Assembly (NCBI GenBank): GCA_900321005.1
Contig: ONUF01000004.1
Span: 52,815 to 116,814 of the forward strand
Length of the DNA stretch: 64,000 nucleotides
DNA from: an uncultured Bacteroidales bacterium
Lineage (GTDB): Bacteria; Bacteroidota; Bacteroidia; Bacteroidales; Paludibacteraceae
Reading direction: 5' to 3'
The position numbers and the translations under genes are program-made. Positions 2,539 through 18,197 of this stretch are shown piece by piece (position 1 is the stretch's first letter; every line of letters starts with the position of its first letter). The notes beneath the pieces were generated by a model. That model was not told the origin of the DNA. It saw only the letters and a list, made by a program, of their open reading frames with translations, and made no database searches.

Positions 2539-3951
2539 TTATTTAATCGCATAATATCTTTTCCCACAGCCTTGCATAACAATGGATGCAATGAATGGCA
2601 TGTTTCCTTGCATATCCATCACACGGTCGCGCAATGATGGCGAGCCGGAGATAAAGTAACTCGCTTCGCCAACAGGCTCTCCATTTTCCACATGTCTGAA
2701 TTTTGCAGCCAGTTTCTTTTCTACTTTCTTTTCACCGGTCTTCATATCGGTGTTCGTGATTTCGACAATCTTGGCATCCTCAAAACAAATAGGCTTGCCG
2801 ATTAGCAGAGTTACTGACAGCCGGTCTCTTTTCAAAACGCCGAACTCGCCAACTTCGCCCTCTTTGATGTCCTGTAATGTTTGCATATTTTTATCAAATA
2901 AATTGTATTTATCACCATATGTTTTGCGCATCAGATTCTTACAACATGCATGTTTGCACCAGCCGTAATAAGATGCCATCTGTTGTTTCCAATCGTCATC
3001 AGATAGGTTCTGCTTTGCCAACTGTTTCACGCGACGCTTCATGCGAATCTTGATGTCCTTGCTCAATAGTGTATATTGACGGCCATCCTTATCAAGACAG
3101 AACTTATAACCTATCATTCGCACAGGTTCGCGCATCGGTGCTATCCTGTAATTGGGTTTTACACGCAACCCTCGCGTTGCACATATATCAATATACCATT
3201 CTACGAACTCATGCGCTTTGGCTTTGGTAGGAACAGCGGTAAACTCATCATCCGTGAAGTTTACTGTAGGATATTTCCACCGCTCATTTATCGCGCGTAT
3301 GATTGGCATATTGACAAGGATGGCCATTAACTGTGATAGGTTGATACCAATGGCAATTCCTATCTCATGCCCTTCTGCGTCAACGCTCTCGTGGAAAACA
3401 TCTACGATAGCATCCAGCAGTTTCAACACGTGTACGTCTTTGAATACCGTGCGCAAATCTGACTTGATAATATCATGTCGCAAGGATGGATAGAACTTTT
3501 GTATATCCGTCTGCACATAATACCAATCAGGATGCTGGCGCATGATGCGCTCGATGGCACGTTTAGCATCGTGGATTCCACGACCCTTGACGCAGTTATA
3601 GGTGTTGCGGACAAACTTCGAGTAGAAATAGTCGCGCAGTACCATGTACGCACATATCATTATAATCTTGTCTGGATAATGTTCAGGACAATTTATTGTG
3701 CGCTCCTTTGGCTCATACACCTTAAATGGATGCAAACCATTAAACTGATACGATTCGGATGTCAATGTTCGCAGGACGAGTTCTTTGCACTCTTCCCAAT
3801 GTGCAATCATATATTTTTGCGCCTTGTTGTAATCCGCAACAGGCATATGCGGATATTTATGCTTGATTAGCGAATGTCGCATAGCACGCTCGATGGTTTC
3901 ATCAGAGCATATCCGCTCCCATAGGCACTCACTCTTTCCATAACGCTTCAT
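2539..3951 (-). CDS. Reverse transcriptase of a diversity-generating retroelement
   Basis: At 470 residues, RT motifs appear in order: YVQTDIQKFYPSL (palm aspartate motif A, about 143-155), GIAIGINLSQLMA (about 198-210, the IGxxxSQ signature of DGR-type enzymes), FTDD in VNFTDDEFTA (catalytic pair, usually YxDD), then GLRVKPNYR and MIGYKF. It lies 115 bases downstream of the template repeat and is read in the same direction as the target gene. DGR enzymes copy the template RNA with errors at adenines, and the cDNA replaces the variable region. The extension beyond about residue 310 is longer than in many DGR enzymes and I do not recognise it. No Avd-type helical partner gene lies nearby. Confidence 0.93.
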   Translation of the reverse strand: MKRYGKSECLWERICSDETIERAMRHSLIKHKYPHMPVADYNKAQKYMIAHWEECKELVLRTLTSESYQFNGLHPFKVYEPKERTINCPEHYPDKIIMICAYMVLRDYFYSKFVRNTYNCVKGRGIHDAKRAIERIMRQHPDWYYVQTDIQKFYPSLRHDIIKSDLRTVFKDVHVLKLLDAIVDVFHESVDAEGHEIGIAIGINLSQLMAILVNMPIIRAINERWKYPTVNFTDDEFTAVPTKAKAHEFVEWYIDICATRGLRVKPNYRIAPMREPVRMIGYKFCLDKDGRQYTLLSKDIKIRMKRRVKQLAKQNLSDDDWKQQMASYYGWCKHACCKNLMRKTYGDKYNLFDKNMQTLQDIKEGEVGEFGVLKRDRLSVTLLIGKPICFEDAKIVEITNTDMKTGEKKVEKKLAAKFRHVENGEPVGEASYFISGSPSLRDRVMDMQGNMPFIASIVMQGCGKRYYAIK

Positions 3952-4065
3952 GGATGGCCTATTCTATTCCGTTCAATTTTCGCATTACACTACTCATAAA
4001 AGTATTATTCTATATGTTCCGCCATTTTATAGGCGACGTAGAACCCGGCACTGTTGTTGGATTAA

Positions 4066-4160
4066 AGAATTTTTGAAGAAGCCACGCCGTTGACATTGTT
4101 CGCATTGTTCGCATTGTTCGCATTGTTCGCCTGCCCACAGCCCGCAAAGGCGGCATGGAT
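4066..4160 (-). repeat. DGR template repeat (TR)
   Basis: This 95-bp segment aligns without gaps to 6119-6213 (offset 2053). It differs at 17 positions, all of them T on the plus strand, which is A on the template sense strand. The other 69 positions, which are not template adenines, are identical. In the target frame it would encode IHAAFAGCGQ followed by four Ala-Asn-Asn units. The end nearest the reverse transcriptase holds the invariant CGGCGTGGCTTCTTC block expected of an initiation-of-homing sequence. It lies in a noncoding gap between a small gene and the reverse transcriptase. Confidence 0.95.
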
Positions 4161-4181
4161 TCACCGGATTCACGTTCGTTA

Positions 4182-4424
4182 TCATACGCGAATAATCACG
4201 TATGATAAGTTCTCTGGAGCGAGCCAATTGCCTCCTGTATGCTGATAGCCTGCTACCGACAAAGCTGTCGCATCAAGCACATCATTATTCATAGACATAT
4301 TTGGCAACGCCTTTGACTGACGCAACGAGAGCGAACCTAACACGTCGTTGTTTACCGACATGTTAGGAAGCGCCCTCGATTGACGCAACGATACAGCACC
4401 TAATATGATTGTTTCGTCTGTCAT
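4182..4424 (-). CDS. Small repeat protein between DGR target and template, unknown function
   Basis: At 80 residues, it starts 10 bases after the target gene stops and ends 21 bases before the template repeat. Residues 8-28 and 29-49 are near copies of a 21-residue unit of the form LGxxSLRQSxALPNMSxNNDV, and a third degenerate unit begins at residue 50. The tail holds TGGNWLAPENLSYVIIRV. There is no signal peptide or membrane helix. It could be a fibre cap or chaperone, or a DGR accessory protein in the place where avd often sits, but it does not look like the four-helix Avd. I do not recognise the family. Confidence 0.6.
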   Translation of the reverse strand: MTDETIILGAVSLRQSRALPNMSVNNDVLGSLSLRQSKALPNMSMNNDVLDATALSVAGYQHTGGNWLAPENLSYVIIRV

Positions 4425-4434
4425 ATATTCGCGT

Positions 4435-6591
4435 TTAAGAATTTACGTCAATAGTCGAAACGACAGTTACAAAGAGTGCAAACTGGATGTAATTCTGGTT
4501 CAAGATGGACTTGTAGCCATTAACCATACCTCCACCACCATTCTTGGTAAAGCACTTATAGTTGCCGGATGCCTTCGGTACGTTACCAAACGGAGTGATT
4601 TCTTCCTCCGTAATAGCACCGGCATTTTTCATCGCAAAGTACTCTCCGAAAGACTGTGCCGGAATCCATTTTGTCTCTCCACCAATACGCTCTTCTCCTG
4701 AAGGAATAGTCTCCCTGTCGTCAAAGATGACAGCGATGGCGTAATCTGATGCCCCCGAATCAACATTTCCTTGCGCATCGCATACATAGAACTGTTCTGC
4801 GTTATCGCAAATGAAAGATTCATTCGGCACGATGATGCGATTATGGAACTTGATATAACTGTTACCATCATTCAGATAGGTTACCTGCGGTTTTAACGTA
4901 TCACCAAGTTCGGCGCGAGCGTAAACCATAGAGCGGCAACGGCAATACAACACATCCGGGATATTCGCATCCTTGATGGGAATCAGATAGCCGGATGCAG
5001 ATTCAAAAGTAACTGCCAAGTTCTCAATGTCACGAGTGAATATCACGTCATTGATATTGTACGTTTCATCATTGAAGAAGGCATGAGAACCTTTGACAAT
5101 ATAGAATGTCGAGGCAGACAACGTAGCTGCTAAATTGGCATCTGGAGTAACATGCGAGTCATACGGATTGATAGATGATGCTATCCAGCCTGCTTTGATT
5201 CTCTTTGCCAACGATGCGAAGACACCGTTGTATTGTACCGACAGCGGGTCTATCTTCACTATCTTGGAGAAGATGCGCCCTGACGTTTCCTGCGATGCTG
5301 TGTCGAGTTTGACATAGCCGTTCTCTACTTTCAGACAGCCATCAATGGAACGGTTATCCCAGCATCCGGCAACACCATCAGAACCGGAATTTCCAGTACC
5401 GATGATAGGGATGCTCAATGCAGGAGGTAATGCCCCGAAATAGTGATACGTGCTGATGTGAGCAGGAGAATCCGGCTTGGTCGTGAAGTCATATTTCTCC
5501 GGGTCATTGTAGATGCCGGTTGATGGTACTTCTGCAAAAATGCAATTCTCCTTGAAATACGTTTCGGGATTCAGAGTTACATGGCCAGCGGCATACAAAG
5601 CCACCAACGCATCGTAGAAATTTTTGATGCCGACTCCTGTGACGGTCATCGTTCCCCCAGTTGGAGTGCCTGTGAAATCTAATTCAGTCACAGCGCTGTC
5701 ATAAACAAACGTCGGCTCTGCATTCTCTCCCTCAACAGGGATGATGAGCAAACGCTTGTTCGTGTACTCTTGGCCGGACGCTTTATCCACATAGAACATG
5801 CGGCAGTCATTCGCGAACAGACACTGATAGAAGTAATCCGCGTGCTCGTAAATGAAATCCACCTTGCCGAAAATCCAGCGATACATATGTCCTGCATTCG
5901 TCTGCGCTGATTTGCCAGTCGCACGGACCTGCAACGGCAGGTCGTAAACGGAGCAGTTTCCGATGCGTGCTGTCGCTGACAAACCATATCCTCCGAATGT
6001 CGTTCCGCATGTATTTTGGTTCGCCACATATGGAGTGCATTTGATTTTGGCATAAATGTTCAGGCCGGTCGATTGGTTTCCTCCAATGCAGCCTCGATAC
6101 ATTTTGCTGTTTCCAATCAGAATAGGCGAAGAAGCCACGCCGAAGACAGAGTTCGCAAAGGACGCATAGGTCGCATCGTTCGCCCGCCCACAGCCCGCAA
6201 AGGCGGCAGGGATATTATTACCATAAGGTGATACAGAATAGTCTGTATCAATAGTCGTACCTCCATTAAGGTAGATGAGGTTGCGCATCGTACAGTAGAT
6301 GATTTGAGATACACCACCGCCATCATAGACTGCCGCGCCCCAGTAGTCACCGATAATCTGGAAAGAGTGATTACCGACGAAGGCTTCGTTTCCGTGACCA
6401 CGAACAACACAACCTGTAGGCGTTACGCCTGCTGCAACCTTCGTTGCCCAACCGTGACTGATGGTAGCGAAAGGATATTCAGGAGTACCATCTGCCTGCT
6501 GACCATTGCTACCGTTGTCCCAATCGACAAAGAAAGTTTGATTTCCTGCGGCATTTCGTGCTTGCCGCCAATGATTTGTATTAGTTGCCAT
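4435..6591 (-). CDS. DGR target: beta-helix-like tail fibre or receptor-binding protein
   Basis: At 718 residues with no signal peptide. Residues 20-50 (FVDWDNGSNGQQADGTPEYP then FATISHGW) resemble the start of pectate-lyase-like right-handed beta-helices common in phage fibres. The following stretch alternates short hydrophobic and polar blocks with many N, G and T, as in such repeats. Residues 127-157 are the variable region. Beyond about 230 come less repetitive, possibly jelly-roll domains. It is the last and largest of the fibre-like genes, after portal and connector genes, so it probably decides which host surface is bound. The DGR would then change that choice. A beta-helix carrying the variable site is inference from sequence pattern. 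Confidence 0.75.
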   Translation of the reverse strand: MATNTNHWRQARNAAGNQTFFVDWDNGSNGQQADGTPEYPFATISHGWATKVAAGVTPTGCVVRGHGNEAFVGNHSFQIIGDYWGAAVYDGGGVSQIIYCTMRNLIYLNGGTTIDTDYSVSPYGNNIPAAFAGCGRANDATYASFANSVFGVASSPILIGNSKMYRGCIGGNQSTGLNIYAKIKCTPYVANQNTCGTTFGGYGLSATARIGNCSVYDLPLQVRATGKSAQTNAGHMYRWIFGKVDFIYEHADYFYQCLFANDCRMFYVDKASGQEYTNKRLLIIPVEGENAEPTFVYDSAVTELDFTGTPTGGTMTVTGVGIKNFYDALVALYAAGHVTLNPETYFKENCIFAEVPSTGIYNDPEKYDFTTKPDSPAHISTYHYFGALPPALSIPIIGTGNSGSDGVAGCWDNRSIDGCLKVENGYVKLDTASQETSGRIFSKIVKIDPLSVQYNGVFASLAKRIKAGWIASSINPYDSHVTPDANLAATLSASTFYIVKGSHAFFNDETYNINDVIFTRDIENLAVTFESASGYLIPIKDANIPDVLYCRCRSMVYARAELGDTLKPQVTYLNDGNSYIKFHNRIIVPNESFICDNAEQFYVCDAQGNVDSGASDYAIAVIFDDRETIPSGEERIGGETKWIPAQSFGEYFAMKNAGAITEEEITPFGNVPKASGNYKCFTKNGGGGMVNGYKSILNQNYIQFALFVTVVSTIDVNS
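6119..6213 (-). repeat. DGR variable region (VR) inside the target gene
   Basis: This copy of the template encodes residues 127-157 of the target. Codon changes against the template are His to Pro (128), Gln to Arg (136), Asn to Asp, Thr, Tyr, Ser, Phe, Ser and Phe (139, 141, 142, 144, 145, 148, 150) and Lys to Pro (156), with Asn kept at 138 and 147 and a silent change at 155. All changes start from adenine. No stop codon or frame change has arisen. Homology stops abruptly on both sides. Confidence 0.95.
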
Positions 6592-7056: not shown

Positions 7057-7542
7057 TTATTGCTGCTCGGATTCAAACAAAGCGTCAATCTCATTGTCAT
7101 TGCCGCTATAGGTAATCTCTACCATATCTCCGGGCTGCAATGCAGTGTCCGCCTTCGCTCCCTGCGCAGCGGTAGCGAAATCACTCGCTTTTTTACCGCT
7201 GTCGGTCAAGTCACCGTTAGCATCCAGCGCCGCGAGATTGCCATTAGTAGCATTTGCTACCTTATTTGCCTTGCCATCAACGTCCACCTGAGTCGTACCA
7301 ATCAACTCAAATGCACCGTTGATAAGAACATACTCATCCTTCACATTGCTGCCGGACACTTTCGTGTTCGGTACAAGGTAAATGACATTCGTCTGTGCTT
7401 CACCGACTGCCGGAAGGGCATTCACGGTCTGCATCGTAATCTTACCTGCGGCTGCGGCTGCAACTAACGTCTCGATGTACGCCTTAATCTTTGCATCGTA
7501 CGCCTGCAATCCAGGATAACTTAAAAATTTTCTTGCTGACAT
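7057..7542 (-). CDS. Phage fibre-like structural protein
   Basis: At 161 residues. It starts with the ARKFLSY-GLQ anchor shared with the next gene, followed by a helical stretch rich in alanine (to about 35). After a beta-type middle comes the module NATNGNLAALDANGDLTDSG (about 98-117), which recurs almost unchanged in the fibre gene at 8227-8913. This module type is common in phage fibre and head-decoration proteins of Bacteroidota phages. The exact place in the virion cannot be read from the sequence. Confidence 0.6.
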   Translation of the reverse strand: MSARKFLSYPGLQAYDAKIKAYIETLVAAAAAGKITMQTVNALPAVGEAQTNVIYLVPNTKVSGSNVKDEYVLINGAFELIGTTQVDVDGKANKVANATNGNLAALDANGDLTDSGKKASDFATAAQGAKADTALQPGDMVEITYSGNDNEIDALFESEQQ

Positions 7543-8226: not shown

Positions 8227-8913
8227 TTAGGATGCCTTTTGTAACATATAGTTTCCTTGTGCAAGTGCACTGAGGTCTATAGACGTATAGACTCGATTAG
8301 GACATACACTCTTTTGCTCTACTACACCAACTACCGATACATTGCTGGTTGAGATACCTACAATACGAATAGTATCACCTACTGCTACATTCGCATAGTT
8401 GATAAGATTCATTAGGCCGTAAGCATCATATCTATTCTGACCGCCTGTTCCGGTGTCTCCAATGGTAATGCGTTCCAAGTCCGTCCACGTTACTTGCTGC
8501 GCACGTAACTCCAATACCTGTTCAGTAAGAGAGTTCAGTATCTCTTGCAGACCGTTAATGCTTCCGATACTATGCGTATGCGACTGCGACGCAAAACTGT
8601 TTGCGTGCTTGCCTTGGTCAACGAGTTTGCCATCTGCGCCGAAGAAAGCAATATGACCGGGCGATACATTCTCTGGCTTCTCAACATACTCTTCATGCGT
8701 ATGTTCGGCCTCGGCAAAATCACTCGGTTTCTTGCCGCTGTCTTCCAGATTGCCATTCTCATTGAGTGCAGCAAGATTACCATTCGTTGCATTCTGCACC
8801 TTATCTGCCTTGTTGAAATCAGGCGCACCAGTGCCATCGCCGCTGCCGTTGACAACACACTTCTCACCTTTGCGGTTGATAAAACCTCTGAATAATCTAA
8901 AATTTCCTGACAT
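8227..8913 (-). CDS. Phage tail-fibre-like protein
   Basis: At 228 residues. Residues 35-65 contain the NATNGNLAALNENGNLEDSG module shared with the gene at 7057-7542, followed by DFAEAEHTHEEY and later SQSHTHSIG. Such HTH motifs bind metal in trimeric phage fibres such as T4 gp37. The middle has a short coiled-coil-like helix (LQEILNSLTEQVLELRAQQV). The C-terminus is beta-rich. These features support a trimeric fibre component. Confidence 0.65.
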   Translation of the reverse strand: MSGNFRLFRGFINRKGEKCVVNGSGDGTGAPDFNKADKVQNATNGNLAALNENGNLEDSGKKPSDFAEAEHTHEEYVEKPENVSPGHIAFFGADGKLVDQGKHANSFASQSHTHSIGSINGLQEILNSLTEQVLELRAQQVTWTDLERITIGDTGTGGQNRYDAYGLMNLINYANVAVGDTIRIVGISTSNVSVVGVVEQKSVCPNRVYTSIDLSALAQGNYMLQKAS

Positions 8914-9364: not shown

Positions 9365-11440
9365 TTAACTTAACGCCTGCTGTATCAATCGCATTGCATT
9401 CGGATTAGCCTGACTTGCTTGTGCCTGCAATGCCTCGTCATTGCCCAGAGATAATGCCTGCTGCGCGATGTCTGCGCCTGCCTGTGCTATCTCTGCCTGA
9501 CTTGCGCCACCCTCTGCCATACGCAAACCGGCTGCTTGGCCCTGCATCATCATAGCCTGCTGCTGCGCCTGCTGTTGTGCCATTTCTGCCTCTTTACGCT
9601 CCAACAATCGCAACACTTGGTCGCTGAAGGGGAAGCGTCCTGCCTCTAACGCAGTCTTGAAATCAATCAGACGTTGCTGCAAAGCAGCCATCAGCAACTG
9701 GTTCAGCTGACTCTGATACAACTCGCTATTGTTCGTCTCCGAAATAAGGATATAATAGTCGAACTTGGATGCCAGAACGGCATTCCATTCTTTCGCCTTC
9801 TCGCTGTATTCGCGTCCGGCTACAGGAATATAGTCCACATAATCGTAGCACTGCGGGATAGTCTTCGCAATCTTATAGTCACGGCGCTTGCGGAAAGCAG
9901 AGAAACTTTCTATGACATCAAGCAGGTTCGTCTGCGCATTATTGGTCTCCTGCGCGTACAGACTACCTGATGTTCCGCTCTTCGCTTCCTTGCCGAGCAT
10001 TGCACCATGCACACCGCTAATGTCGCGTACCAACTGCAACTGCAACGCGAGCATTTCGTTCGCACCGATATTGGTTGCGTTCGTGCTAATCTGCGTCGGC
10101 AGAGGTACACCCGGCTTTAAGTTGGCGAAGATAACACCACGATAACTTGCCCATTGCTCCAATATGTCCTCCTTCTGCATTCCAGCAGGGATGGCATTCT
10201 CCGGGAAGATGAGCACGCCTTTTGCACTTGCACCCATGATGAAGTCAATCAGGGTAATCAAGCGGTTGATATAGCGTTGCTGGTCGATGATGCTCTCCTC
10301 GAAGGAATAAATCTCACCGTCCACAAGACGGCTCATATAGATAGCGAATGGGTGACTGCGATGAGCAAACGGACTGCGGCCTTCATATAAGATGTCACCG
10401 CGCGGACTCATATAGCGAACGTACCAGTACACGTCATTATGACGCTTGCAGGTGATTTCGCATTTCTTCGGGTCAAGACCATTAAGACGGATGTCCTCGT
10501 TGCGCTCCTTAATCATCGCGTCGATAGCCGCTTTGTCTTTCTTCGGATAAATCTTCAGCGTATTCTCGTAGCGGTCATGAACCAGCCACGATTCTTTTGT
10601 CTCCAATTCCCACGCTTGGATAACACGGCATACGTCATCATTCTCCGGCGTGAAGAAATCCAACATGCGGTCGCCGTTATCCATGAATGTACGGTAATAC
10701 TGCGTCAACTGATTCTTACTCACGCGACTGTAGATGTCTTTGATGCGAGCCTCGTCCTGCGCTGTATGAGCAAAACGCTGGATAACTTCATGTAATGGCA
10801 TATCCATCAGAAGACCGATACACGTGATGTCACGTCCGCGTACGTCACGTACGCCTCCATTCATAAATAGGAAATTAGGGCTACAACTGATGACATTCAC
10901 CTCCTTGGTATGCGTCTCGTTGTTCCACTGATAGTCGATATACTGCGCTGCCAGACCACCTCGAAGGCCCTCCATAAAGTCAGAAACGTCCACCTCTTTG
11001 ATGTCGTTTATTTGACCTACATACTGGAGCATTGCAGTCATCATTTCACCAGCACCCTGATTGTCTCTGGCGCGGGCGATGGCTTCTGGATGTGTATAAT
11101 TGCCACGGAAAACACCCACGACGCTGTTCTGCGTCTGGAGGATGACGTTATTCTTCAATGGCACTTTGCCTTGGTCCATGATATGCTGAGCCTCGGTAAT
11201 CATCTTACCGCCCACCTCAATCATATCGTCCCATTGCCGTCCACGCTCGTAGCGTTTGATACGCTTGCGACGAATACGGAACGAGTGCATCGCATCGTAC
11301 ATCGCACGATAACGCATCAGGCGCTTAATGTTCTCGGCAGCGTCAGCCTGCGGCTGGTCATTCAATGGAACAACCTTCGCTACCTCCTCATCGCTCTCGC
11401 GTAACAGGTATTTATATCGTTTGTCAGTCTTGTCTATCAT
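9365..11440 (-). CDS. Portal protein (P22-like size)
   Basis: At 691 residues, close to the large portals of short-tailed phages. The pattern fits the family: a basic helical N-terminus (RIRRKRIKRYERGRQW, about 55-70), a clip and wing region with NFLFMNGGVRDVRGRD (about 190-205), the stem segment FEESIIDQQRYINRLITLID, and a C-terminal barrel rich in Gln, Ala and Met (about 620-691). Portals form a ring at one capsid corner and guide DNA in and out. Its start overlaps the end of the upstream connector gene by 4 bases. Neighbouring capsid and connector genes agree with the call. Confidence 0.8.
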   Translation of the reverse strand: MIDKTDKRYKYLLRESDEEVAKVVPLNDQPQADAAENIKRLMRYRAMYDAMHSFRIRRKRIKRYERGRQWDDMIEVGGKMITEAQHIMDQGKVPLKNNVILQTQNSVVGVFRGNYTHPEAIARARDNQGAGEMMTAMLQYVGQINDIKEVDVSDFMEGLRGGLAAQYIDYQWNNETHTKEVNVISCSPNFLFMNGGVRDVRGRDITCIGLLMDMPLHEVIQRFAHTAQDEARIKDIYSRVSKNQLTQYYRTFMDNGDRMLDFFTPENDDVCRVIQAWELETKESWLVHDRYENTLKIYPKKDKAAIDAMIKERNEDIRLNGLDPKKCEITCKRHNDVYWYVRYMSPRGDILYEGRSPFAHRSHPFAIYMSRLVDGEIYSFEESIIDQQRYINRLITLIDFIMGASAKGVLIFPENAIPAGMQKEDILEQWASYRGVIFANLKPGVPLPTQISTNATNIGANEMLALQLQLVRDISGVHGAMLGKEAKSGTSGSLYAQETNNAQTNLLDVIESFSAFRKRRDYKIAKTIPQCYDYVDYIPVAGREYSEKAKEWNAVLASKFDYYILISETNNSELYQSQLNQLLMAALQQRLIDFKTALEAGRFPFSDQVLRLLERKEAEMAQQQAQQQAMMMQGQAAGLRMAEGGASQAEIAQAGADIAQQALSLGNDEALQAQASQANPNAMRLIQQALS

Positions 11441-12690: not shown

Positions 12691-14106
12691 TTACGCGGTC
12701 AACCGCAAGGTTACTTTGCAGTGTACATCCGGGTTGTAAACCGATACACCGAATACCTCGCTGAAGACCTTCATTTCGCCCTTCATAATCATCAGCTTCT
12801 CGCCGTCATACGGAGTAGCCTTGAAGGCTTGCAGCTGCCACTTGCGCAGGAAGAGCGGGTCGAGAATCAAGCCCTTGTCGCTCCAGCCGTACTCGTCAAA
12901 GATTTCAGCGTGAGCAAGCAACAGAGTACCGAAGTTGCTGACAATCTTGTTCCAAGTCATACCGAATACAACCTCGGTATTGCCAGCCTCTTGCTGCTTC
13001 TGTACGGCCTTAATCTTAGATACAGCCTCGATGAACTCACTACCACCAAGCAGGATGCGGGTCTCCGAACCACTATTGCCGGTGAACGCGTACTTCTCCA
13101 GACTGACAAGAGCCTCATTACCCTTGGTCATATCAGACAGGTCAAGTTCGAACGACTTGCTAATCTGACGAGTGATACCCTGCATCGTGTAAACGTACTT
13201 GTTCAACTTGCGGTTCCAAATCTTAGCACCCTTGTTGAACAGGATAGCACCCTCCAGTTTGCGGCGATATTCGTACAATACCTGTTCCTCAACCTCGGAC
13301 AAATCCCACTTGAATTTCTTATCCATCAACTTCTCGAAAGTGGACTGTGCAATCTGCGCAATATGATACTGGCAGAAGCCATGAGTCGGTTTCGGGAGGA
13401 CGGATGCTGCGTCGGTCTTAACAGCCAACTCATCAGCGGCACGCGAAAGCAGGTAGATTTCGGTGTCTTTGGCGAGCGCCGGAATAGCATACGTAGTCGT
13501 GTTGTTCGCAGTGGTCTTCGTCATCTGGTCCTCGGCAATCGTGAACTTAATCGCGTTATTGTCAAGGTCTTTCTCATAGACGTAGAGCATCAGCGCACCA
13601 CCATCAGCACCTGCTACAGACGGAACGAAGAAGCAGTCACCTTCGCCTACAGAACTAATACCACCTTTGAGAACTGCACTACCATAAACGCCGGTAACAT
13701 CGGTGTCGCCGTGAAGAGTAGCAGCCGCATTCAGCGCATTAGCCAGACTCTGAGTTGCAATCGAGTAGAAATCATACTCGAAGTTGTTCGTCGGAACAGG
13801 CTTGAAGTAACGCAGAATGGTGTCCATTCGGTTCAGACCCGGACGAATCTTTACAAGATTCTGGTCAACAGGGTCATCAATCATATCCGGGCGCAAGGCT
13901 CGAATATCTAAGGTCTCCAGAGCACCGCCATCACCATGAGGAATGGTCGTGACAGTCGTCTCCGTTTGAGCACCGGGTTGCTCCGCAGCGGCGGCTGCAC
14001 CATCGGCACTCATCACTGCACCCGACATATCACCAACGCCGAGTACCACACACAAGGTAAGCATCAAAAAGCCAACCAAGCTAAAGTTTTTCAGAAACTT
14101 TTTCAT
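12691..14106 (-). CDS. Major capsid protein
   Basis: At 471 residues, it follows the scaffold gene and precedes connector and portal genes. It is a mixed alpha/beta protein with LSEVEEQVLYEYRRKLEGAI (about 268-287), then NRKLNKYVYTMQGITRQISK, and later a helix-strand region around RILLGGSEFIEAVSKIKAVQ (about 348-367). The N-terminus is odd: MKKFLKNFSLVGFLMLTLCV reads like a signal peptide or membrane helix and is followed by an Ala/Glu-rich stretch. If the first ATG is used, the segment may be a cleaved assembly domain. Internal Met codons at residues 28 and 33 (near 14025 and 14010) could be the true start. The capsid role is inferred mainly from gene order. Confidence 0.7.
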   Translation of the reverse strand: MKKFLKNFSLVGFLMLTLCVVLGVGDMSGAVMSADGAAAAAEQPGAQTETTVTTIPHGDGGALETLDIRALRPDMIDDPVDQNLVKIRPGLNRMDTILRYFKPVPTNNFEYDFYSIATQSLANALNAAATLHGDTDVTGVYGSAVLKGGISSVGEGDCFFVPSVAGADGGALMLYVYEKDLDNNAIKFTIAEDQMTKTTANNTTTYAIPALAKDTEIYLLSRAADELAVKTDAASVLPKPTHGFCQYHIAQIAQSTFEKLMDKKFKWDLSEVEEQVLYEYRRKLEGAILFNKGAKIWNRKLNKYVYTMQGITRQISKSFELDLSDMTKGNEALVSLEKYAFTGNSGSETRILLGGSEFIEAVSKIKAVQKQQEAGNTEVVFGMTWNKIVSNFGTLLLAHAEIFDEYGWSDKGLILDPLFLRKWQLQAFKATPYDGEKLMIMKGEMKVFSEVFGVSVYNPDVHCKVTLRLTA

Positions 14107-15692: not shown

Positions 15693-16213
15693 TATACGCC
15701 ATTCTCATATTATCCGTCCTCCTGTTCCTCGTCATGCCGCAGCAAGCAATGCTCGAATATGGCGTATCGAGCGCGTGTATGTGCAATTCCTATTGTTATA
15801 TGCTCATGCACGCATCATGGTTACACCTATTCATCAACGTGCTTTCCATGCTTATCCTATGGTTTCCTGTTCGGCGACTGTACGTCATGCGTTACAATAC
15901 CGAAGCGCATATCCTGCACTATGCTACATATTTTGCAGCGCTGATTGCAGGACTCGTATGCGCTGTCGAACTTCCGACTGTCGGCATGAGCGGATGCGTC
16001 TTCTTTCTCCTTGGCCTGTTGCTCATGCTCAACCCCACAAAGAGGCAAGCACTCAACTATCTGTGGATAGTAGCAACACTCATCGTCCAATGGTATTTCG
16101 GAAAATCCAACGTGGCACTACATATCTTCGCCTTCGTGGAAGGATGCCTTTTCGTATGCGTAAGAGAATTTATTTACCAGTATGTTAACCCCGGAAGAGT
16201 TTATAAGGATTAA
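15689..16213 (+). CDS. Rhomboid-type intramembrane serine protease (phage-encoded)
   Basis: At 174 residues with six hydrophobic segments (about 1-16, 36-60, 75-93, 98-114, 122-137, 143-160), the minimal rhomboid core. The diagnostic residues appear in order: HLFIN (H46, N50, the oxyanion HxxxN), GMSG (S101, nucleophile) and the helix-6 histidine in ALHIFAF (H145). Rhomboids cut transmembrane segments of other proteins. It lies immediately before the terminase gene and overlaps it by 32 bases. A rhomboid in a phage packaging module is unexpected; possible roles are altering a host receptor, superinfection exclusion or processing a phage membrane protein. The family call is good, the function unknown. 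Confidence 0.75.
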   Translation: MIYAILILSVLLFLVMPQQAMLEYGVSSACMCNSYCYMLMHASWLHLFINVLSMLILWFPVRRLYVMRYNTEAHILHYATYFAALIAGLVCAVELPTVGMSGCVFFLLGLLLMLNPTKRQALNYLWIVATLIVQWYFGKSNVALHIFAFVEGCLFVCVREFIYQYVNPGRVYKD

Positions 16214-18197
16214 CGACGAACGCAACAAAGAGCGACGCCGCAAGTACGACCCCATCACAGGTGAGGGTTGTGACTCGTGTGAGCGTATGTCATTTTCTGC
16301 ACTCGAACTGGGGTGGTATGACTATCAAGTACCGAAAGACTGCTACGAGGAAAAAATCTTCCAAGACCTCTACGAATGTGGATTCTCTATCAGAACATAC
16401 CTGCATCGTCTCGGCCTCCGATATACTCGCGTCAATCTCGAAGAAGTAAAGCGTGAAATAATCAGGGCGCGATGCAAACATGACTTTGAGTATGCTGCGG
16501 CTTCTTTCTTTTATATCAAGGACAAGAATCCGCTCAACCTCAAACCGATATTGTTTAGGCTGAATCGTGGCCAGCGGCGACTGCTCAAACTCATATACAA
16601 GTATGACAAAGCAGGACTCCCTGTCCGCATCATCATATGTAAGCGTCGTCAGGTAGGATTCTCTACTCTCGTGCAACTGTACATGGCATGGAAGCAACTC
16701 TTCGTGCTCAACATGGCTTGCTCGCAAGTTGTTGCGCACGTTGAGAACCAAGCGCGTATCATCCGAGGTATGTATTCCAACATGATTAAGCGACTACCTG
16801 CATGGCTTCTTAATCTGCCGGATGACACCAAACTCAAACTGTCACCATACGAGAAAGCAACCAAGACGCAAATCATCAAGGAGATTGGATGTCGTATATC
16901 CGTTGGTTCATCAGAGAAACCTGATAACCTTGCCGGTGATGACGTATCAATGGTACACTTCTCCGAGGTAGGTCTGTTCAAGTCAACGGCAAACAATAAG
17001 CCGGAACAACTTATCCAGACCATCCAAGGTGGTATATCTTATGCGCCGAACACATATATCTTCTATGAGTCAACCGCACGTGGCGTAGGAAACTTCTTCC
17101 ATACCGAATACTTGCGGGCCAAGAAAGGCGAATCTGACTGCGAAGCATTCTTCTCGCCTTGGTTTGATAAAGATGATGACGTGCTGCCTATCGACGACTA
17201 CTATGCCTTCATCGCTTCCATGACCGACTACGAGCGATGGATGTTCGACCAAGGCGCTACACTCGAAGGTATCAACTGGTATCGCAAAGCATCTAAAGGT
17301 CAGAAGGACAAATGGCGTTGGAAATCAGAGCAGCCGACAACCGATGTCGAAGCGTTCCAATCAACAGGACGCAGACTCTATCCGCAAGATGACGTGATGC
17401 GTCTGCGTCGCGGATGTATCGAGCCGAAAATTATCGGAGAGATATACGGAGACAAAACCTACGGACCGGAATCGCTTGTCAATATCAAGTACCGCTCTGA
17501 ACCAGGAGGAAATCTGAAGATTTGGTTCGAGCCGGACCATCGGCCAGACAGGCAATGCAACGACAGATATGTTGTTATCGTCGATATAGGTGGAACATCA
17601 GACCACTCTGACCGCTCAGTCATCTGCGTCATCGACCGCTATGACATGACACACGGAGGTGTACCGATAGTCGTTGCAGAGTGGTGCGGTCATATTGACC
17701 ACTACCTCCTCGCATGGAAAGCCGTACAGATTGCGACCATATATAACAACGCACTCCTCGTTATTGAGTCTAACACTCTGGAGACAGAGCAGACAGAAGG
17801 AGACCACTTTGAATACGTACTGGACGAAATAGCATACCACTACGACAATCTGTACTGCCGTGTGGATGCCGAAAAAATCGAAATGGGATTTGAACCCAAG
17901 TGGGGATTCCACACCAACAAGTCCACAAAGCGCATGGTATGCGACCACCAGAAGAAGGCGCTGCGTGAGAATATGTATATAGAGACATGTTCTGATGCGG
18001 TGGACGAGCACGACTGGATGGAAATTAAGAAGAATGGTTCTATCGGTGCAGTCGAAGGACAGCACGACGACCGGCATATAACACGCGCTATCGGTATATG
18101 GGTATGCTACGACTACCTCAACACGCCTCGAAAAGTTGTACCGCGCTCCGCAAGGGCCAAAGCAATGACTAAGGTAATAGGAATGACAACAATATAA
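16182..18197 (+). CDS. terL: Terminase large subunit
   Basis: At 671 residues, slightly long for the family because of about 100 extra N-terminal residues. The ATPase half has a Walker A-like KRRQVGFST (154-162) and a Walker B/glutamate segment VSMVHFSEVG (255-264). The coupling motif region is TYIFYESTARG (291-301). The nuclease half has VVIVDIGG (D468), LLVIESNT and a late DDRHITRA, the usual three acidic clusters of the RNase H fold. It pumps DNA into the head through the portal and cuts it. No small terminase is recognised upstream, where it normally sits. Confidence 0.9.
   Translation: MLTPEEFIRINDERNKERRRKYDPITGEGCDSCERMSFSALELGWYDYQVPKDCYEEKIFQDLYECGFSIRTYLHRLGLRYTRVNLEEVKREIIRARCKHDFEYAAASFFYIKDKNPLNLKPILFRLNRGQRRLLKLIYKYDKAGLPVRIIICKRRQVGFSTLVQLYMAWKQLFVLNMACSQVVAHVENQARIIRGMYSNMIKRLPAWLLNLPDDTKLKLSPYEKATKTQIIKEIGCRISVGSSEKPDNLAGDDVSMVHFSEVGLFKSTANNKPEQLIQTIQGGISYAPNTYIFYESTARGVGNFFHTEYLRAKKGESDCEAFFSPWFDKDDDVLPIDDYYAFIASMTDYERWMFDQGATLEGINWYRKASKGQKDKWRWKSEQPTTDVEAFQSTGRRLYPQDDVMRLRRGCIEPKIIGEIYGDKTYGPESLVNIKYRSEPGGNLKIWFEPDHRPDRQCNDRYVVIVDIGGTSDHSDRSVICVIDRYDMTHGGVPIVVAEWCGHIDHYLLAWKAVQIATIYNNALLVIESNTLETEQTEGDHFEYVLDEIAYHYDNLYCRVDAEKIEMGFEPKWGFHTNKSTKRMVCDHQKKALRENMYIETCSDAVDEHDWMEIKKNGSIGAVEGQHDDRHITRAIGIWVCYDYLNTPRKVVPRSARAKAMTKVIGMTTI

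Follow-up and report, generated by a model that had tools for sequence, protein, structure and literature searches.

The stretch analysed here (the window, 64,000 nucleotides) corresponds to positions 52815-116814 of contig ONUF01000004.1 from an uncultured Bacteroidales bacterium of the Paludibacteraceae (genome of 2.1 Mb, 78% complete, in 54 contigs). Near its left end lies a cassette of a reverse transcriptase (RT) gene, a template repeat (TR) and a target gene that carries a variable repeat (VR). This element is a diversity-generating retroelement (DGR) of a Bacteroidales prophage, probably with a tail-type target and loop diversification as proposed below. Its layout, with the TR outside the target gene beside the RT and the VR inside a coding gene, is as follows.

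4435-6591, minus strand: target gene, 718 aa; the VR corresponds to residues 127-158, and the front half is homologous to tail-protein-like genes that have no DGR
6119-6213, minus strand: VR in the extent given by the initial annotation (repeat search and alignment)
6128-6213, minus strand: mutagenised core of the VR (TR/VR comparison)
6124-6127, minus strand: GCCT block of the VR (AAAA in the TR), proposed homing boundary, resembling an initiation of mutagenic homing (IMH) site (alignment of five close systems)
4066-4160, minus strand: TR, with four GCGAACAAT units, which read as Ala-Asn-Asn in the VR frame
2539-3951, minus strand: DGR-type RT, 470 aa (family matches and motifs)

Template and variable repeats in the window and its relatives

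The segments 4066-4160 and 6119-6213 were aligned over 95 bp without gaps on the minus strand, which is the coding strand of the RT and the target and the one on which adenines were counted. All of the 17 differences fall on the 26 template adenines (8 A>T, 6 A>C and 3 A>G), and none of the 69 other positions differs. The probability that 17 randomly placed differences would all fall on adenines is 1.2e-12. The same pair was also recovered by a repeat search of the window. In nine other 6-kb slices of the window, used as a control, the best adenine-only segment of at least 25 bp had no more than 21 non-adenine matches, compared with 69 here. The gapless adenine-only pair described in the initial annotation is therefore real. 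Its count of mutagenised positions, however, needs correction: all 17 differences are at template adenines, but the last four look fixed. Since these four lie outside the varying part, the mutagenised count is that of the core, in which 13 of the 21 template adenines and none of the 65 other positions are changed.

A pattern search of the bacterium's own genome, with adenines left open and up to three mismatches allowed, gave two copies, the TR and the VR, and no others; matches of the target profile in this genome were likewise confined to the target and the TR. With the genome 78% complete, another copy may have escaped the search.

Related systems were obtained by scans of IMG/VR with the RT and the target (L001-L004, L018, L019, L048, L049 and L051) and by genome searches (L013 and L034); L014-L017, L021 and L050 are duplicates of the same contigs, and L020 holds a remote RT. 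A script that allowed mismatches at template adenines only gave TR/VR pairs in L002, L003, L004, L013, L019, L034, L048 and L049. It gave none in L001, L018 and L051, the contigs of which have an end within or beside the VR; such ends would be expected of a VR too variable for assembly. In seven systems (the window, L002, L003, L004, L013, L019 and L034), with cores of 83-86 bp, 85 of 146 template adenines differ, compared with 2 of 450 other positions (p 4.6e-60). Two systems are not part of this count: over 88 bp, L049 differs at 11 of 19 adenines and at no other position, and L048 differs at 7 of 12 adenines over 61 bp. The initial annotation had regarded non-adenine changes as frequent as those at adenines as a sign against mutagenic homing, and no such equality was observed in the relatives.

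Contigs L018 and L019, the names of which point to two different IMG/VR sets, show only 5 differences over 5170 aligned bases. All five are in the part of the VR covered by L018 and at TR adenines (12 of 42 positions), whereas the TR and the RT are identical. L017, a duplicate of the L003 contig, differs from L013 at 163 of 4793 aligned bases. The 95 VR positions account for 11 of these differences, each at a template adenine; outside the VR, 152 of 4698 bases differ, one of them in the TR. The count of population variants proposed in the initial annotation was thus carried out on a small scale with relatives, and the VR changed at template adenines as predicted. This indicates, from the sequences compared, that the DGR is live in the relatives. 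The adenine-only pair, the adjacent DGR-type RT and the VR-only change between near-identical relatives together support the assignment to the DGRs.

The whole target was present in two of the 178 genomes of the window's genus: its own and G525. The match coordinates of the latter fit the Bacteroidales genome RUG11067, in agreement with the Bacteroidales host originally annotated. The RT of RUG11067, which we presume from its name series to be of rumen origin, is 67% identical to that of the window. No DNA match was obtained in a phage collection (near mode) or a plasmid collection (distant mode), and the phage collection contained no protein match for the window target or the L019 target. The window RT matched 84 records of that collection, all below 60% identity. 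A scan of viral contigs with alignment A6 gave no confirmed relative.

The RTs of L019 and the window are 73% identical and the TR cores agree at 42 of 45 positions; the targets are 34% identical, and the 5' part of each TR matches its own target. These values suggest an exchange of the target (or of the cassette), which the TR then followed. Two genomes of the same genus (L010 and L011) carry a different DGR with lectin-type targets; that of L010 matches FGE-sulfatase, and the L011 target is 81% identical to it. The host genus therefore has a second kind of DGR.

Position of the variable repeat and scaffold of the target

In the window, about 1.7 kb of the target gene lie between the end of the VR and the stop codon. 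The VR centre is at 0.19-0.21 of the protein in all eight family members with a whole target gene (L004, in which the gene is cut, was omitted), and 475-565 residues lie behind the VR. In nine other DGRs with more distantly related RTs, the centre is at 0.85-0.98 and at most 23 residues follow. The number of residues behind the VR is the safer measure, because the fetched stretches cut off the 5' side of seven of these nine genes. BKO1-TP3 is not among the nine, since the script found no TR/VR pair near its RT. The front position of the VR is an unusual feature, which the initial annotation had missed. In a survey of 36,611 DGR targets, a C-terminal VR is part of a near-universal layout and annotated VR regions are systematically tied to C-type lectin (C-lec) folds; the reason given for the C-terminal position is that cis-acting sequences need freedom from coding (PMC8144416). 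One exception already known is that of the tentaclins, whose authors describe 5' VRs as rare (PMC10743442). The C-terminal VR of C-type lectin targets was found in none of the eight members.

The GCCT block lies behind GGCTTCTTC. In all five close systems (the window, L002, L003, L004 and L013), the VR has GCCT where the TR has AAA and a varying base; L019 has a different mismatch at this place (CCCCG in the VR, ACTAA in the TR). The last four differences are constant between the VRs and so do not stem from recent mutagenesis. The AAAA/GCCT difference, as judged from this alignment, probably marks the homing boundary. Since most of the target residues follow the VR, this boundary must function within coding sequence. 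A VR-end hairpin, GGCG..CGCC, present in the VR and not in the TR, was considered and dropped: 4-bp stems of equal strength occur at 89 of 425 places compared along the target gene, and the hairpin is absent from L034 and L048.

The target profile was compared with 393 genomes of the order, of which eight matched. Besides the bacterium's own genome, these are G141 (L034), in which the match spans almost the whole length, and six genomes in which it lies mainly in the front part. Stretches from five of these six (L035-L040; G324 is not among them) were fetched. In these stretches none of 20 RTs gave a match at E<=0.01, and the script gave no TR/VR pair apart from a tandem coding repeat in L036. 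Alignment A5 (11 members) includes seven of these DGR-less proteins, L039 being omitted because it is cut by a contig end. The DGR targets carry the VR-holding segment and the seven DGR-less proteins do not. The exact borders of the segment are unsure, because the DGR-less proteins are 18-22% identical to the window target. Homology of the front halves of the two groups is supported by profile comparison (hhalign probability 99.4%, E 9.7e-22). L037:3218-8808 holds three adjacent paralogues of the DGR-less family.

The tail protein family phrog_4577 was matched by 8 of the 11 A5 members, including all seven DGR-less proteins (best 1.4e-6). Among DGR targets, that of L019 matched at 2.2e-5 and that of L034 at 0.14; those of the window and L003 gave no match. 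Against PDB sequences, the A5 profile matched a tail spike and tail fibre (8fqc, 0.0011; 9rkv, 0.002), with a tRNA ligase domain scoring better (0.00035). The matches covered about 35 positions in this search and up to 62 in another. Several of the weak Foldseek matches were to tail fibres, tailspikes or GH136 enzymes, and we take several of the top ones, enzymes or tailspikes, to be beta-helix proteins. DUF5123 (5 of 11 members, best 0.0017) and DUF1565 (1 of 11, 0.044), which are presumably beta-helix-related, were too weak to be used as hints of the fold. The scaffold assignment rests on sequence, because both AlphaFold runs were poor and the fold searches gave no match at E<=0.001. On these weak signs, a beta-helix tailspike is a likely candidate for the target. 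The "fibre-like" gene of the initial annotation was right in kind, as relatives match a tail protein family, but the layout is not the usual one.

A common pattern runs through the nine VRs that were read: after G-x-G, every third residue is small (mostly Ala or Val), and the two in between are mostly variable. L034 departs from this rhythm with one Ser and L004 with one Pro. In the window the sequence is GCGRANDATYASFANSVFGVA, and nine residues of the core differ from the translated template.

From these features, a mechanism may be proposed. The TR and the spacer behind it would be transcribed, and the RT would copy this RNA with errors at adenines. The cDNA would then replace the VR in the target gene, starting from the boundary where TR and VR diverge (GGCTTCTTC, then GCC in the VR and AAA in the TR). 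The product would be a tail protein of the tailspike type, in which the variable segment forms an inserted loop, GxGRAxxAxxAxxAxxVxGVA, with the variable pairs between small residues. Changes of this loop might alter which cell surface the phage binds; we infer host binding as the purpose, as was presumed in the initial annotation. Stated in full, the reading is that the lineage diversifies a loop inserted between the rungs of a beta-helix tailspike rather than a C-lec domain, with homing at the front of the gene, a boundary in coding sequence, and neither a 3' hairpin nor the accessory protein Avd. We hold this fuller reading tentatively.

Several observations weigh against the proposed mechanism and target assignment. 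The window target has no family above the cut-off in Pfam, PHROGs or NCBIfam. Two AlphaFold runs were poor, with a mean confidence (pLDDT) of 34.8 and 43.2, the second being of the front part of the L049 protein as a stand-in for the window protein, and Foldseek gave no match at E<=0.001. A hairpin of the BPP-1 type (stem of at least 6, loop of 3-8, from 25 before to 80 behind the VR end) is absent from eight of nine systems, L004 with a 6-bp stem being the only one that has it. No Avd-like Pfam match was found in the open reading frames (ORFs) scanned, which are part of those of the prophage. The conserved spacer element described below was not found in L048 or L049. Both non-adenine changes of the seven-system count are in L004, and L048 has two non-adenine differences just outside its 61-bp stretch. 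Finally, live diversification is indicated for the relatives and not for this prophage itself.

The poor AlphaFold models would also be compatible with an ordinary C-type lectin target, the lectin domain of which is at the front and too diverged to be recognised. Tentaclins do have a front C-lec domain holding the VR (PMC10743442), and uncharacterised VR domains are expected to be C-lec variants by Roux et al. 2021 (PMC8144416). However, C-lec, DUF6273 and FGE-sulfatase are not among the 12 Pfam families matched by any of the 11 A5 members at E<=1. Comparison of the target with five lectin-type DGR targets (so called on the FGE-sulfatase matches of the two scanned) gave an hhalign probability of 0.1%. 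Furthermore, the front half is homologous to DGR-less genes without the VR segment, no Ig-like domain was matched in the window target, and the VR motif differs from those of the lectin-type VRs read. A hidden lectin seems unlikely on this evidence.

The missing family match of the window target, together with the position of its gene, with four small genes of unknown function on one side and the RT and holin genes on the other, which fits several roles, could mean that the protein does not bind hosts as a tail protein and has another role on the virion or in the lysogen. The matches of relatives to a tail protein family and, weakly, to solved tailspikes and tail fibres, as well as the P22-like portal of the prophage, make such a role improbable.

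The family, with its 475-565 residues behind the VR, is a natural exception that can show which cis-acting sequences are truly needed. Perhaps it can also show that another protein scaffold tolerates mass variation. A literature search, in which subscription papers and preprints were thinly covered, gave no paper linking a DGR to a beta-helix target. The target may fall in the rarer target clusters of the survey of Roux et al.

Reverse transcriptase, spacer and prophage setting

The remaining features of the region are given below.

3331-3351, minus strand: IGINLSQ motif of a DGR-type RT (sequence)
3247-3258, minus strand: catalytic FTDD motif, at the YxDD position (sequence)
2539-2874, minus strand: C-terminal extension of the RT, about 110 aa (RT alignment)
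3974-4003, minus strand: non-coding element GAGTAG..GCGAAAnTTGA between TR and RT (conservation), proposed part of the template RNA
4182-4424, minus strand: ORF of 80 aa with internal repeats between target and TR (ORF list), without Avd match
1-20300, no strand: right-hand part of the prophage, with holin, portal and capsid; chromosomal-looking genes follow

The RT matched phrog_1423 "Reverse transcriptase" at 3.5e-64 and Pfam RVT_1 at 2.8e-7. With its IGINLSQ and FTDD motifs, it is the DGR-type enzyme beside the template that the initial annotation described (IGxxxSQ and FTDD). Among solved structures, its profile was closest to group II intron and retron-type RTs (4.8e-16); chain 8ub7, which we take to be the RT of Bordetella phage BPP-1, was matched at 1.1e-10. 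In a tree of 19 RTs, the window, six close kin, L034, L048 and L049 form a group (support 91/92), and the adjoining group consists of Hankyphage and BKO1-TP3 (87/85). Neither fork is starred, the root is for drawing only, and L020 was omitted for its very long branch. FTDD is present in all seven closest RTs of the tree, whereas L034 and L048 have YMDD and L049 has NMDD. The C-terminal extension aligns with those of the Hankyphage and BKO1-TP3 RTs; the bacterial DGR RT L010, aligned with them, lacks it.

Avd is an accessory protein of many DGRs, not of all. The DGR was initially annotated as complete, a term to be used with care: TR, VR and RT are present, but Avd was not found in the ORFs scanned; the RT has the extension shared with Hankyphage. 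The 80-aa ORF is unlikely to be an Avd. It is repeat-rich and has no Pfam match, and small ORFs resembling it by eye lie behind the target in relatives and also behind DGR-less tail-protein-like genes (L037 and L038). Its isoelectric point (pI) of 5.5 is no argument, as the small ORFs of relatives range from 4.4 to 9.9 (L001, in the wrong frame, excluded).

The spacer element GAGTAG(..)GCGAAAnTTGA is kept in L001-L004, L013, L018, L019, L034 and the window. Within the element, 29 of 34 positions are identical between L003 and L019, compared with 38 of 67 in the preceding spacer; for the window and L019 the values are 24 of 33 and 37 of 65. RNAalifold predicted 45 pairs in the TR-RT spacer, five of them with changes on both sides. 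No RNA structure past the conserved element is claimed, because the eight sequences include several near-identical ones.

In L048, the RT and TR precede the target, whereas the RT open frame of L049 includes the TR, read in frame, at its start; the order of the cassette is therefore not fixed. It should be mentioned that the RT frame of L049 (7090-8406 and downstream, on a 155-kb contig) runs past two in-frame TAG codons into an apparent conserved C-terminal extension and stops at TAA. This suggests that TAG is read as an amino acid in that phage. The viral contig L020 carries another DGR (VR 4627-4726, TR 5457-5556), in which the VR is C-terminal and 17 of 33 adenines are changed over 100 bp; its RT is the one with the very long branch.

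The window RT has FTDD where L034, L048 and most other RTs compared have YxDD. Together with the missing Avd match and the derivation of the diversification evidence from relatives alone, this might reflect a DGR that worked in ancestors and no longer moves in this prophage. Such decay is quite improbable: the RT and the target are full open frames, FTDD is common to all seven close RTs, including those of the pair L018/L019, which differs in the VR only, and the 13 core differences are accompanied by none at non-adenines. An assembly artefact from a strain mixture or misjoined copies is hardly conceivable, even though the genome has the completeness (78%) and the contig number (54) typical of an assembled bin, as the same kind of layout recurs in other contigs and RUG11067 and assembly does not make an adenine-only pattern.

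The first 20.3 kb of the window hold the holin (2015-2518; PF05105, 4.9e-6), the RT, the target, four small genes of unknown function, a P22-like portal (9365-11440; 3.7e-35) and an SU10-type capsid (12691-14106; 2.5e-20). A 671-aa ORF (16182-18197), without Pfam match, may be a terminase from its appearance. Chromosomal-looking genes, as judged by eye, follow from 20.8 kb. To the left of the window, chromosomal genes (by eye) extend to about 10.7 kb of the contig and are followed by an integrase-like gene and then phage-like genes. The integrase-like gene (L059:10965-12314) matched PF00589 at 2.9e-5, just under the cut-off, and Arm-DNA-bind_5 at 3.2e-5, above the cut-off; a six-frame search with PF00589 gave no match on this contig. 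No attachment-site (att) repeats of at least 12 identical bases were found between the two stretches compared. Since integrase-like and phage genes lie between chromosomal-looking flanks, the region is a prophage, as originally annotated. Upstream of the target, two neighbouring genes share a 99-bp segment (7175-7273 and 8714-8812) with 73% identity.

Comparison with known systems

BPP-1 has in common with the window the RT kinship presumed through chain 8ub7, adenine mutagenesis and an IMH-like 3' difference. In BPP-1, IMH and IMH* fix the direction of homing, and the fixed TR/VR difference at the 3' end in the window resembles this pair; BPP-1 has a GC-only 14-bp part of the IMH and requires a hairpin behind the VR, close to the stop codon of its target gene (PMC3240598). 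Here, in contrast, eight of nine systems have no such hairpin, and the VR end is far upstream of the stop codon. BPP-1 also has Avd (PMC6199706), whereas none was found here among the ORFs scanned.

Hankyphage (Bacteroides phage p00) shares several features with the window: it is a temperate phage of Bacteroidales, its RT is in the nearest group and has an alignable C-terminal extension, and a small ORF lies between target and TR. However, its VR is at the end of a C-type lectin protein of more than 2100 residues (PMC6199706), whereas the window VR is in front. Hankyphage is a transposable phage (PMC12135933), and it gave no GAGTAG element with the pattern used.

The tentaclins of the nd4 and nd12 phages and of Faecalibacterium prophages are like the window target in having the VR near the 5' end of the gene. 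They consist of a C-lec domain (DUF6273) followed by Ig-like domains (PMC10743442), whereas the window family has neither in Pfam at E<=1. The DGR-less Bacteroidales tail-protein-like genes (L035-L038 and L040; phrog_4577) have a homologous front half and a similar motif at the domain end; unlike the window target, they lack the VR segment, and their stretches gave no RT match at E<=0.01.

DGRs were carried by 12 of 28 inducible Bacteroidota prophage species (PMC12629997). The DGR of the window is thus ordinary as a kind; it is the site of mutation, and perhaps the type of protein mutated, that is unusual.

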